The notes below the pieces were generated by a model, which was given only the letters and a program-made list of their open reading frames with translations, was not told the DNA's origin and made no database searches. From positions 28,166-92,165 of IMG/VR virus record IMGVR_UViG_3300022853_001508: DNA of 64,000 bases. One strand, given 5' to 3'. A program made the position numbers and the translations under genes. Below, in pieces: positions 21,767 through 34,698 of the stretch (its first letter is position 1; each line of letters starts with the position of its first letter). The DNA is from a virus.

Positions 21767-23584
21767 TTACGCTGATTGCCAGAAAGATTTCTGAGAAATA
21801 AGTTGTAAACGGTTAAGCTCTCCTATTGATTTAGCTTTTTCTTTAACCCCTTTAAGTGGTCTCATATAACCTTCTTTAAAAAGGTAAGCCCCTGGGGTTG
21901 ATGGGTTTGATACATAATCAAAAGCGATTAGTTCAAAATCATCTTGCACAATGTCTTGTCCACCCTGAGACTTAACACTTCCTACTCCACGAGAAGAAAT
22001 TCCTAATTTGAATCCAGTTTTTAGAAGACCCTTCAACGTGTTGCCTGCATCTGTTTCAGCAATTTGCACTCGGCCCCATAATTCTTTTCCTTCCCACCAC
22101 ATCTCAACAACACGGTGTGAAACATTAGCGAGAGATACAACTGCGGAGTTTCCAGTCCAATGGGATTTACCATTACGCATTACAAAGAAATTTCCGTTTT
22201 TAACTCTGACACAAGCTACTTTATCAAACGGGTTTTGGATTTGAGAGATTTTTAAAAATCTCTCATCCATGTAAATAAAATCTGTAGTGCTAACATTAAG
22301 GATGAATTTAGTTTTACTATTTTTAGCCTCAATCAATCTTGGTTTTAAAATTTCTTCTTTAACCATCTCTACAGCCCCATCTGACATCACCACTTCTTTT
22401 TCAAGAACGACTACATCATTTATATATCTATCTACAGGTTGTTCTTGAGTTATATTTCCGTGGAGCCCTATTTTTAACAGCACCTCACTAAAGTCTTTAA
22501 TCATCTTTTCTGAAGTAGAAAAAATCTTTTTACACACATATCCTTTGTCTTTATGATAAGATGTTTTAGATGTTCCATCTCCCATGTGAAAATTTTCAAA
22601 AAGAATAGTCAGCAATTCTGAATTAGCTGCTTTTATATCTTCTGGAATGTATTTTTCAGAACTATTCCCTAAAGGAAATAGATATTGCTTAAGTCGTGCA
22701 TCGTAAATTTGAAAATCTATTTTCCCATCTCTATAAACACGTTCGTTATACTCTATCCCTAAATCATCAAATATTTTTCTAATTGCCTCAAAATTCTCAG
22801 ACTTCTTCTGTGTAATTTTAACGAGGTTGTGTTTTGCTTTGCTCCCACACACTCCAGCAGAAGTTCCATCAGCTAGATACAAACCTAAAAAAGCAAACCA
22901 CGCTTTTGCATTAACAACAAGGTTTTGAGAATATTTATCCTTAAGCTCATTGCTTATGTGTGGTTTAAACTCTTCGATTCCAGGGATTATATAGGAATCG
23001 TAATTAATTCCATCCCAATTTCCTTTTTTAGGAATTCTCCACTTTCCGCTTCTATACTCAGACAGCTCAGATGCTGTCTTCTCAAAAGATACCCCATCAG
23101 ATGTCTCAAGTATAAATCTATGATTTGGAGTAACCATCAAATCAATTCCTTTACCCTTAAAGTGATACATCTTACCACTATAGGGTTCTAAGATTTTTTT
23201 ATCAATCTTATGAGCCTCAATTTTATTAGTTTCCTGATTTAAAGTATATATAAACTCATCTTCTGCAATATCTATTAGCTTCTTCCAGCCGTTAATGGTT
23301 AAAATGCTAGTGTCTAATGAGTTGCAATCAGGATGGTCAAGTTCACCACCAGCCACGTTTTCCTTTACGAGCTCCATGTACTTATCAGCCTCGCGCTTTA
23401 AAATTTCGTATGGGTAAATTCGACCGTTTTTATTTAACGTATCTGCTATCTGAAGAATTCCAGACATCACGATAGGCTGATATTTTTTTTCAGCCTCTAT
23501 AATCATTTCACGGGTTGGAGCATTAAATGTATAGTACTCGGAAATGATATATTTATCTTGGTAATCGGAAATAAGTCCGCTCAT
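21767..23584 (-). CDS. Prohead protease (T4 gp21-like) interrupted by an intein
   Basis: The precursor has 605 residues: an N-extein of 86 (ending GGELDHPD), a 393-residue intein, and a C-extein of 126. Removal of the intein gives 212 residues, the same length as T4 gp21. The mature serine protease carries the catalytic His in ELDHPD and the catalytic Ser in LGISSRG, and matures the head by cutting capsid and core proteins. The insertion lies two residues after the catalytic histidine, so no activity is expected before splicing. It has a late-type promoter and sits upstream of scaffold and capsid. Confidence 0.9.
   Translation of the reverse strand: MSGLISDYQDKYIISEYYTFNAPTREMIIEAEKKYQPIVMSGILQIADTLNKNGRIYPYEILKREADKYMELVKENVAGGELDHPDCNSLDTSILTINGWKKLIDIAEDEFIYTLNQETNKIEAHKIDKKILEPYSGKMYHFKGKGIDLMVTPNHRFILETSDGVSFEKTASELSEYRSGKWRIPKKGNWDGINYDSYIIPGIEEFKPHISNELKDKYSQNLVVNAKAWFAFLGLYLADGTSAGVCGSKAKHNLVKITQKKSENFEAIRKIFDDLGIEYNERVYRDGKIDFQIYDARLKQYLFPLGNSSEKYIPEDIKAANSELLTILFENFHMGDGTSKTSYHKDKGYVCKKIFSTSEKMIKDFSEVLLKIGLHGNITQEQPVDRYINDVVVLEKEVVMSDGAVEMVKEEILKPRLIEAKNSKTKFILNVSTTDFIYMDERFLKISQIQNPFDKVACVRVKNGNFFVMRNGKSHWTGNSAVVSLANVSHRVVEMWWEGKELWGRVQIAETDAGNTLKGLLKTGFKLGISSRGVGSVKSQGGQDIVQDDFELIAFDYVSNPSTPGAYLFKEGYMRPLKGVKEKAKSIGELNRLQLISQKSFWQSA
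22148..23326 (-). other. Intein with LAGLIDADG endonuclease in the prohead protease
   Basis: Residues 87-479 of the precursor. The first residue is Cys (CNSLDTSILT), the last are HWTGN, and the following extein residue is Ser. This is a class 1 intein with a His-x-x-x-Asn ending. The central part has two LAGLIDADG-like helices, FLGLYLADGT and FENFHMGDGT, so a homing endonuclease that spreads the intein is probably intact. Confidence 0.9.
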
Positions 23585-30729: not shown

Positions 30730-31108
30730 ATGATATCAGTGATTCTATTATTTTATTTTTATCTGCATTATATTCAGATTCCCAAATAGTAAGGTGATTG
30801 AATCCAGACTTAATTGCAAGCTTTTTCTTATTATCATCAGCTTTCCAAAGTTCTTTAGCTGTTTTGTTTTTATGAGGATGAATAAAACTAGGTAAATATT
30901 TTAAAGGATTACAATGCCAATAGTCTCCATTATATTCTATAAGAAGATTTTTATCAGGGATGTATATGTCGAACTTGAATGATTCTAACGAAAACTGAGA
31001 TTCAGATTTTATGCTTTTTTCTCTGAGTCTATTTACTATCTCTCTTTCAGCTTTTGATACTGGAGCACATTTTAGCCTTCCTTCTTTTTGACCTTGAATT
31101 GCATTTTT
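30719..31108 (-). pseudogene. Truncated Vsr/I-Bth0305I-like homing endonuclease
   Basis: An open frame of about 129 codons has no usable start codon and is preceded directly by TAA. It reads AIQGQKEGRLKCAPVSKAER, then FKFDIYIPDKNLLIEYNGDY followed by WH, then KKLAIKSGFNHLTIWESEY. The D...IEYNGDYWH core is that of the Vsr-like (EDxHD) homing endonucleases. The N-terminus is missing exactly where the IS200/IS605-like element begins. It is probably dead, although its catalytic half is well preserved. Confidence 0.7.
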
Positions 31109-31188
31109 ACATTACGGAGCGTAAAGCCCACTCATCACGTAGTGTGGGTGGGATGTAAGCGACCTTATCTTAATTATTTTAAATAAAT

Positions 31189-31219
31189 TTTGTTATTTCT
31201 TTAAACTTTTGTATTTTTG
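31189..31219 (+). promoter_or_regulatory. Bacteroidetes-type promoter inside the element
   Basis: TTTG, exactly 19 bases, TATTTTTG: a perfect match to the Bacteroidetes sigma consensus TTTG-N19-TAnnTTTG, reading toward the right end. Confidence 0.6.
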
Positions 31220-31225
31220 TACATT

Positions 31226-31338
31226 AAGAAATATTTTGTCAGGAACTGACAGAAAAAATCAAGGTAAGTTGCCAACACTAGTTGGAGCGTTGACCCTTGA
31301 AGCCCATCCCATCGCCTCTGGCGTGGGTGGGTAGTTCA
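31226..31338 (+). ncRNA. Structured RNA, possibly omega-RNA-like
   Basis: Downstream of the promoter come three successive stem-loops: GTCAG-GAA-CTGAC (31238-31250), CCAAC-ACTA-GTTGG (31272-31285), and a 12-pair stem with two bulged T (31302-31331). There is no open reading frame. TnpB guide RNAs have this arrangement and take their guide from sequence just beyond the right end, here TTAGAGTAATCTTGAAC, the 3' end of the neighbouring gene. Confidence 0.45.
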
Positions 31339-31611
31339 CTTAGAGTAATCTTGAACTCGCTTCTGAGCGTACTCAGAATCCGACATCTTCATTACCTCTC
31401 CGATAACGATGTTGTCTACATTTTCAAATTCTTCAATTGCCACGTAGCCTCTCTTGGCTTGGGCATCAAGCATTGTAGTCATTCTTTTTTGTGAAAGAAT
31501 AAATTCGTCTTTCTTTAAGAATACTCCTGGAGATTTATTCGATGCGATAGCAACGGTGAACTTAATCTTGTCTAATCTTCCTGTGTTAGTTATTTTCCAA
31601 ACTGTTTCCAT
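31336..31611 (-). CDS. Hypothetical protein, 91 aa
   Basis: A small soluble protein (TVWKITNTGRLDKIKFTVAI..., ending YAQKRVQDYSK) with no recognised family. Its last stop codon overlaps the right end of the IS200/IS605-like element, so the element may have replaced the original end by a few bases. It follows the acidic protein at 31652 on the same strand and may share its late-type promoter. Confidence 0.55.
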   Translation of the reverse strand: METVWKITNTGRLDKIKFTVAIASNKSPGVFLKKDEFILSQKRMTTMLDAQAKRGYVAIEEFENVDNIVIGEVMKMSDSEYAQKRVQDYSK

Positions 31612-32838: not shown

Positions 32839-34698
32839 ATGAATAAAAACAGAAAAGTACAACGCCAAAAAACATCTCGTGAGATACAAAGCGACTTGGA
32901 AAAAATGGGCTTAGAGAGAGATAAGGAAGCTCAGATGGATAGGCTTAATGCAATATCTCATTTTCAAATCAACAAAGATATTAAGCACAAAAACGCTAAG
33001 CAAAAGCTTCTGTGCAAAACTATCATGGAAAATGAAATCACATTTGTTGCTGGAGCTGCTGGGACAGGTAAGGCGCAACCACTAACTGAGCCTATATTAA
33101 CGCCTGGCGGTTTTGTGGAAATCGGAAGCATTCGTCCTGGAGATAAAGTAATTTCGGTTGATGGAACACCTGTAAATGTCAACTCTATTCATCCACAAGG
33201 AGAAAAAGATGTCTATAAGGTGTCTTTTTCTGATGGAACGCATACACTATGCTGTGGTGAGCATTTATGGGAAACACAAACAGAAGCTGATAGAAATAAT
33301 AGAAAAAAAAGGAATGGGGTTGCAATAAGAGAGCCGCTGTCAGGAGCAGTAAAAACTACTTTTGAAATAAAAGAGAGCTTACTGACTAACCGAGGCAGGA
33401 AAAACCACTCAATCCCCATCTGCAATCCTATACAGTTTGCAAATAAAGAACTAATAATTAACCCTTATCTAATGGGCTGTTTAATAGGCGACGGGTGCTA
33501 CAGCCAACATTTTGTCTCGTTTAGCTCTGCGGACGAAGAAATTATTTGTGAGTTTAAGCAAAGCCTCCCTCACCCTGTTAAGATAAGTAAAAAACCTGGA
33601 GATAATTATGATTATTACATAACAACTAAGACAAGGTCAAATAAGGCGAATAATTTACTCCTCTTTGAGATGAGGGATTTAGGTTTAATGGGTCAAAAAT
33701 CTCATGAGAAAATAATTCCTGATAAATATCTCTACTCTTCTGTTGAAGATAGGGTGGAGTTACTAAGGGGTTTAATGGATACAGATGGGCATATCCCTAA
33801 AAATGGCTCTTCTATTGAATATTACACCACGTCGCAAATTTTAGCTAGTCAAGTCATGGAGCTAATTAGAAGCCTTGGTGGTATTTCTTCAATTAGAACT
33901 AAAAAACCCTTTTTTACAGATAAATTTGGAGAAAAAAAGCAAGGAAAGATATGCTATGTTGTCACTGTTTTATTTGAAACGCTTAACCCTTTTAAGTTAT
34001 CAAGAAAAGCAGGACTATTTTCTGATAAAAAAAGAATGAAAATAAAATATATTACTGGTGTCGAAAAACAAGGAGAAGAAGAGTGTGTTTGTATTCACAT
34101 AGACCACCCAAGACATTTATATGTGACAAGAGATTATAATGTTACTCACAACACCTTACTTAGTTTAAAAACTGCTTTAGAATTACTGAAAATTGACAAC
34201 GAATATAGCCAGATTATACTCACAAAACCAATTGTAGAAGCTGGCGAATCAATAGGGTTCTTACCTGGAGACATAGACTCAAAAATAGACCCCTATATGG
34301 ACTCATTTTTGGGAAATTTTAAAAAACTTGTAGGCTCAACAAAGACAAAGGACTTCATTCAGAATGACGTTGTTAAATATGTTCCTCTTGCATATCTTCG
34401 TGGTGAAACGTTTGAAAATTCAGTAGCAATAATTGATGAAGCGCAGAATACAACAGTAGCTGGGTTAAAGCTTTGGATTTCTCGTAAAGGAGAAAGTTCA
34501 AAGCTTATAATTATCGGAGACACAGACCAAACAGACCTTTATCTAAGAAATGGTCAGCGCTCAGGATTAGACGATGCTTTTAATAGGTTTCAAGGCCTTC
34601 CAAAAATTGGTTTTATACAATTCACAGAAGATGAAATCGTTCGCTCAGGTATTCTAATAGATGTTATGAAGAGGTATAAACTTGAATTAAAAAGCTAA
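32839..34698 (+). CDS. PhoH-like ATPase interrupted by an intein
   Basis: The 619-residue precursor contains a PhoH-family P-loop ATPase split at the Walker A motif: FVAGAAGTGK (residues 69-78) and TLLSLKTALELL (from 439). Walker B is VAIIDEAQN, followed by IIIGDTDQTDL. The mature protein would be 259 residues, normal for phage PhoH proteins, which are linked to RNA metabolism but poorly understood. ATP binding is impossible until the intein is removed. It is transcribed away from the late gene at 31652 and is followed by late-type small genes. Confidence 0.9.
   Translation: MNKNRKVQRQKTSREIQSDLEKMGLERDKEAQMDRLNAISHFQINKDIKHKNAKQKLLCKTIMENEITFVAGAAGTGKAQPLTEPILTPGGFVEIGSIRPGDKVISVDGTPVNVNSIHPQGEKDVYKVSFSDGTHTLCCGEHLWETQTEADRNNRKKRNGVAIREPLSGAVKTTFEIKESLLTNRGRKNHSIPICNPIQFANKELIINPYLMGCLIGDGCYSQHFVSFSSADEEIICEFKQSLPHPVKISKKPGDNYDYYITTKTRSNKANNLLLFEMRDLGLMGQKSHEKIIPDKYLYSSVEDRVELLRGLMDTDGHIPKNGSSIEYYTTSQILASQVMELIRSLGGISSIRTKKPFFTDKFGEKKQGKICYVVTVLFETLNPFKLSRKAGLFSDKKRMKIKYITGVEKQGEEECVCIHIDHPRHLYVTRDYNVTHNTLLSLKTALELLKIDNEYSQIILTKPIVEAGESIGFLPGDIDSKIDPYMDSFLGNFKKLVGSTKTKDFIQNDVVKYVPLAYLRGETFENSVAIIDEAQNTTVAGLKLWISRKGESSKLIIIGDTDQTDLYLRNGQRSGLDDAFNRFQGLPKIGFIQFTEDEIVRSGILIDVMKRYKLELKS
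33073..34152 (+). other. Class-3-type intein with LAGLIDADG endonuclease in PhoH
   Basis: Residues 79-438. The first residue is Ala (AQPLTEPILTPGGFVEIG), not Cys or Ser. The WCT set that marks class 3 inteins is present: Trp in GEHLWETQ, Cys in ECVCIHIDHP, and Thr in the final VTHN. The +1 extein residue is Thr. LAGLIDADG helices LMGCLIGDGC and LRGLMDTDGH indicate a homing endonuclease. Confidence 0.85.

Follow-up and report, generated by a model that had tools for sequence, protein, structure and literature searches.

A 229-bp segment on the plus strand of a virus record, positions 31111-31339 of the 64,000-nucleotide stretch analyzed here (the window, positions 28166-92165 of the 92,165-base record), is by its sequence a non-autonomous element of the IS200/IS605 family (IS1341-type, TnpB-only branch), i.e., a palindrome-associated transposable element (PATE). 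In the reading that we prefer, with a probability of about 0.7, this PATE has been retained as a guide RNA that is transcribed from its own promoter, acts in trans and would lead a foreign TnpB to the empty site, TTTAC followed by TTAGAGTAATCTTGAA. The element was found as a single copy within the record. Its parts are given below with the evidence for each.

31106-31110, plus strand: TTTAC target motif, the presumptive TAM, at the left edge (read directly)
31111-31339, plus strand: PATE of IS200/IS605 type (both halves align to tnpB-bearing elements of ~1.3 kb)
31127-31152, plus strand: left-end subterminal hairpin CCCACTCATCACGTAGTGTGGGTGGG (fold of the element; conserved in the relatives L072, L030, and L079)
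31189-31192, plus strand: -33 box TTTG of the former tnpB promoter (pattern match; same position upstream of tnpB in most aligned relatives)
31212-31219, plus strand: -7 box TATTTTTG, of the form TAnnTTTG (pattern match; homologous box in relatives)
31222-31224, plus strand: deletion junction within a CAT common to both sides (comparison with L072; ~1.08 kb lost)
31224-31339, plus strand: predicted omegaRNA scaffold of ~116 nt (fold, pairs, and model; start placed from the promoter)
31237-31251, plus strand: stem-loop 1, TGTCA-GGAAC-TGACA (compensated stem changes across relatives, loop kept)
31259-31300, plus strand: stem-loop 2, 17 pairs of which 8 show compensatory changes (pair count)
31302-31332, plus strand: stem-loop 3, the right-end hairpin (pair count; right-end pattern scan)

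The first-pass annotation of this DNA had proposed that the segment is an IS200/IS605 element of the non-autonomous kind that retains a TnpB omegaRNA, and this identification held: intact tnpB-bearing relatives share the ends, the promoter and the RNA, the RNA covaries, and the edges are TTTAY. Of the bounds claimed, the left one was found at 31111, two bases inside the 31109 given earlier. Both terminal hairpins and the TTTAC left edge were recovered as described, and so was the right end resembling those of IS200/IS605 (...GGGTAGTTCAC), which stops at 31339. The ends are homologous to those of dozens of IS605-type elements, and the subterminal hairpins of the left end (LE) and right end (RE) to those of known IS200/IS605 members. 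TTTAC or TTTAT was present 5' of the left end in all nine miniature elements examined as well as in the tnpB-bearing relatives; with this fixed short target, TTTAY at every left edge read, insertion is 3' of the motif and apparently occurs without duplication. The absence of a transposase or TnpB, noted earlier for the neighborhood, extends to the entire 92-kb record (itself a fragment), in which neither TnpA nor TnpB was found. As neither tnpA nor tnpB is present, the element is a non-autonomous derivative and not an autonomous IS. It is short, transposase-free, bounded by IS605-type palindromes and derived by loss of the core, in agreement with the definition of a PATE (PMC3119063).

Relatives were identified by a right-end pattern scan of IMG/VR, which gave 72 stretches. 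Many of these were ~1.3-kb elements whose left end and RNA/right end match those of the window element, and which also carry a TAnnTTTG promoter and a TnpB gene. The TnpB of the intact relatives is 389-393 amino acids long and is carried by other viral contigs and by one Bacteroidales genome. It matches the Pfam families HTH_OrfB_IS605, OrfB_IS605, and TNB, residues D185, E264, and D346 are invariant, and it is similar to the PDB chains of ISDra2 TnpB (8h1j, 8bf8; phmmer 1.5e-64); by these matches it is a normal member of the TnpB family. One relative, L037, also carries TnpA. The autonomous TnpB-only elements L072, L030, L004, L069, L062, L056, L017, and L079 resemble the window element in ends, promoter, RNA and TTTAY motif, but are ~1.3 kb long with tnpB present whereas the window element has 229 bp and no tnpB.

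The closest comparison was with L072. On the left, as far as slightly beyond the promoter, L072 is 90% identical to the window element, and on the right, from the RNA start, 94%; between the two matching parts it carries a 393-amino acid TnpB where the window has none. After the promoter L072 reads TTTGTACAT/ATTTATAA, and before the RNA ...TTTTGCAT/TAAGAAAT; the window junction reads TTTGTACATTAAGAAAT. Since the left and right sides meet in the common CAT and L072 holds TnpB between them, the window element is an internal deletion of ~1.08 kb. This comparison shows that a single such event removed tnpB but spared its promoter, along with the left end and the complete omegaRNA/right end. A Bacteroidota-type promoter is thereby found only a few bases 5' of the omegaRNA.

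An internal promoter of host type had also been claimed. It is present, and it is the promoter of tnpB in the intact relatives: the string TTTG-N19-TATTTTTG spans 31189-31219, the -7 box reads TATATTTG in L072, L004, L017, L062, and others, and TAnnTTTG is the consensus for the Bacteroidota -7 box (PMC7366714). The string by itself occurs at chance density in the AT-rich window, with three matches against 1.5 expected (18 of 100 shuffles reached three), and as stand-alone evidence it was rejected. The support for the promoter is its homology to the tnpB promoter.

The three stem-loops described downstream of the promoter were found between 31237 and 31332, and the proposed omegaRNA design is borne out by the homologous elements with TnpB, by the fold and by the covarying stems. 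The RNA part folds at -43.6 kcal/mol compared to -26.9 kcal/mol for shuffled sequences (z -4.6; reached by 0 of 200 shuffles), and scores 142 bits with model R1, in which the window sequence is itself included. Covariation was assessed in an alignment of 19 relatives with a shuffle test (n = 500). Stems 2 and 3 together comprise 30 pairs, which were 98.4% paired over these relatives; changes on both sides were present in 9 pairs and 25 cells. The shuffles averaged 4.6 doubly changed cells, and 0 of 500 reached any of the three values. When the partner column was slid by one to three positions the pairing pattern of stems 2 and 3 was lost. Stem 1 occurs as TGTCA/TGACA, TATCT/GGATA, GAGTA/TACTC, and GTCTG/CAGAC, while its loop is retained as GGAAC or GGGAC. 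This covariation is found although the same stretch in intact elements doubles as coding sequence for the TnpB C-terminus. In the window copy 35 of 35 modelled pairs are intact. It differs from the L077 RNA at six positions, none of them in pairs, and from the L072 RNA also at six, two of them in pairs. A conserved scaffold that ends exactly at the RE and has covarying stems fits a TnpB omegaRNA. The suggested Rfam/Infernal check was not informative, as no family reached the gathering threshold for the window, the locus or three related elements; Rfam coverage of such RNAs appears to be lacking, which makes this weak evidence, and the question was decided by homology to real elements instead.

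Miniature elements without tnpB were found in other viral contigs, with an LE-RE distance of ~210-270 nt. For the short class, the end of the -7 box and the end of the RE were 120 (window), 122, 122, 123, 123, 123, 126, and 127 nt apart, and promoter and RNA were always retained. A dedicated scan for the AACTCTGG-type RNA revealed a -7-like box 2-8 nt upstream at all 10 distinct sites, and no tnpB-bearing version of this RNA was seen in that scan. The AACTCTGG-type miniatures (L165, L167, L170, L178, L176, and L040) have the LE hairpin, a promoter resembling TTTG-N19/20-TAnnTTTG and the omegaRNA/RE in the arrangement of the window element, but they belong to a different RNA subfamily and are multi-copy at many sites. 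The record G010 (IMGVR_UViG_3300025839_000011) contains at least three miniature copies with differing flanks together with TnpB and TnpA genes. Since overall identity to the AACTCTGG type is no more than 66-71% for the window element, compared to 90-94% to its tnpB-bearing relative, the two promoter-RNA fusions appear to have arisen separately.

G010, a 93-kb phage record, is unusually rich in IS605 elements, with 12 matches to the omegaRNA model, four to TnpB and three to Y1 transposases. In a longer miniature class (L177, L045, and L047, all on the minus strand) ~100 extra nt are located between promoter and RNA. The extra stretch starts with a boxA-like GTTCTTTGA followed by a sequence of the form TGGTT-hairpin-AAAACC, and might serve a guide RNA that is not translated as an antitermination leader; across all loci (2.7 Mb) there are 56 copies of GTTCTTTGA on the two strands.

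These comparisons bear on whether the window element could be a dead remnant of a recent internal deletion, which kept promoter and RNA by chance and left the RNA idle without a compatible TnpB. The element is known at one site, where the other miniature lineage is found at several, and the only related records are three sister contigs that all carry it in identical form, i.e., four near-identical records in total. With one site and four such records, selection for function after the deletion is inseparable from recent origin. A dead remnant would also agree with the lack of TnpB and TnpA in the record and with the two of six differences from L072 that fall in pairs, so that few mutations have tested the fold. 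Moreover, functionless remnants do persist: in the related phage G031 a decayed relative has lost the -7 box and the left end to a deletion. The same copy demonstrates that promoter retention is not automatic. The breakpoints in the window element preserve exactly the promoter and a complete RNA, and the same arrangement with near-equal spacing arose in an unrelated, multi-copy, mobile miniature lineage. We therefore consider chance preservation somewhat unlikely.

A miniature could alternatively be driven purely by mobility, with the ends kept for TnpA, and promoter and RNA kept only because they overlap the ends. In IS200/IS605 elements the RE hairpin and the guide-adjacent motifs serve as TnpA substrates too, which favors this explanation. 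So does the existence of PATEs that consist of fused ends only (PMC3119063; PMC7290912). TnpA requires the subterminal hairpins, however, not the promoter or RNA stems 1 and 2. The pairing of these two stems is conserved across families, and short miniatures always keep promoter and RNA. Mobility as the sole cause is accordingly judged unlikely, and maintenance as a guide RNA is preferred.

The features at the insertion site are as follows.

30731-31105, minus strand: homing-endonuclease-like gene remnant without a start codon, on the other side of the insertion (translation)
31336-31611, minus strand: phage ORF of 91 amino acids with the element at its 3' edge (ORF list and sequence)
31340-31355, plus strand: predicted guide TTAGAGTAATCTTGAA, in the flank beyond the right end (placed as in known TnpB guides; PMC8612924)

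The element provides the TGA stop codon of the 91-amino acid ORF, and with the flanks joined this codon would read TAA. With a stop codon at the same position whether or not the element is there, the gene is unharmed. The ORF had no homologue among phages and none in Pfam. The remnant on the other side matches Pfam MTES_1575 at 31.1 bits, below the cut-off of 38.2, and has DNA similarity to homing endonucleases of Pseudomonas phages. The empty-site alleles suggested as a check in relatives were not found: a search by neighbor proteins gave only the three sister records, all of them occupied, and the joined flanks of nine miniature elements had no joined match in 33 records.

An RNA with a stand-alone promoter in a phage could also be a domesticated guide, which the phage would turn on its competitors or on a gene of the host and which would not serve retention of the element. 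There is precedent in TldR, where TnpB relatives and their guides have been repurposed by phages (PMC13418256). The TAM plus guide had no exact match in IMG/VR, and in the window and the first 20 kb of the record there was only one site, with three mismatches and a broken TAM; as with any insertion, the guide is just the adjacent sequence. A domesticated guide is thus highly unlikely. That the segment is a group I intron, or another structured RNA acting in cis, is hardly credible. Such a reading would be in line with the adjoining homing-endonuclease remnant and a weak Rfam match to Intron_gpI (RF00028; 18.1 bits, E 0.045), but this match was rejected against a gathering score of 50 bits, the flanking ORF is not split, and IS605 homology gives a full account of the segment.

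For the preferred reading, a retained trans-acting guide, we infer expression, TnpB loading and cleavage alike. The fused promoter would allow a Bacteroidota RNA polymerase to make a short non-coding guide RNA, comprising the ~116-nt scaffold and 16-20 nt from the flanking phage sequence. The RNA would be bound by a TnpB acting in trans and supplied by another element, be it in the host, in a co-infecting phage or in a stretch of this phage that was not sampled. The earlier suggestion that the guide is directed at the phage's own flank is in accord with what would be predicted for a TnpB. From TnpB biology, the complex would be expected to cut copies of the locus lacking the element, in which TTTAC is directly 5' of the guide, with the element then put back by repair; the occupied site, where TTCAC precedes the guide, would be spared. 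Movement of the element would require TnpA in trans.

The phage is a T4-like myovirus by its head and tail-sheath genes, and its host is probably a member of the Bacteroidota. The sister contig IMGVR_UViG_3300005933_000005 extends ~33 kb beyond the window's record and starts inside a second omegaRNA (L160:1-119) of another subfamily; a TnpB gene may be located beside it, just outside the assembly. The closest cellular TnpB, 80% identical, is that of L079 in a Bacteroidales genome. There it is part of an entire element that shares ends, promoter and RNA with the others, and this speaks for Bacteroidota as hosts of the family. The exact omegaRNA core pattern gave no match in 84,980 GTDB genomes. 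Among 396 genomes of the phylum of L079, both halves of the whole-element DNA were found only in L079's own full element, and of 60 relatives of the L079 genome searched with model R1 the L079 genome alone matched. As the genome searches gave only L079, the family appears to be carried by viruses, and chromosomal copies to be rare. A plasmid search gave matches at chance level only.

PATEs of Haloquadratum and Halanaerobium are short, transposase-free elements with IS605-type subterminal palindromes and a deleted core (PMC3119063; PMC7290912), and in these respects they are like the window element. In the Halanaerobium case the final 58 nt of tnpB and the entire right end are retained as well. 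The passages describing these PATEs speak of fused ends and of no RNA or promoter, whereas the window element has a promoter fused precisely to a complete, covarying omegaRNA, and is found in a phage. The reRNA of ISDra2 TnpB is derived from the tnpB 3' end and the RE, has a guide of ~16 nt from the flank, and uses a TAM that equals the insertion target (PMC8612924); processing of TnpB mRNA has also been described (PMC10278001). In ISDra2 the RNA comes from the tnpB transcript and TnpB acts in cis, whereas in the window element tnpB is gone and the RNA has its own promoter; the TAM is TTGAT in ISDra2 and TTTAY in the family studied here. TldR systems have a phage-borne, TnpB-related guide RNA in common with the window element (PMC13418256). 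However, TldR is a TnpB-related RNA-guided transcription factor, and no nuclease-dead TnpB-like gene was found next to the element. A literature search of incomplete coverage returned nothing on stand-alone TnpB guide elements. Stand-alone omegaRNAs have been mentioned for IscB/TnpB systems.

If the element is active, the guide RNA would be the product that it preserves and TnpB a shared resource exploited by parasites, and drive between phages would need only ~230 bp. Earlier descriptions of non-autonomous IS605 elements are of fused ends that lack a gene product, while here a compact guide-RNA unit has apparently been kept and independently rebuilt. It is possible, at somewhat less than even odds, that Bacteroidota phages carry a class of elements made up of ends, promoter and omegaRNA that evolved more than once, are selfish through the guide only, exploit any compatible TnpB in the cell for the conversion of empty alleles and thereby spread from phage to phage in mixed infections. 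The TnpB retention model could be tested with this very small natural element, and such elements would be a source of naturally short, promoter-driven omegaRNAs.

Two other genes in the window carry inserts. The PhoH-like gene at 32839-34698 has an in-frame, intein-like LAGLIDADG insert, and the prohead protease gene (Peptidase_S77) at 21767-23584 is split by intein-splicing and LAGLIDADG domains, which probably constitute an intein.
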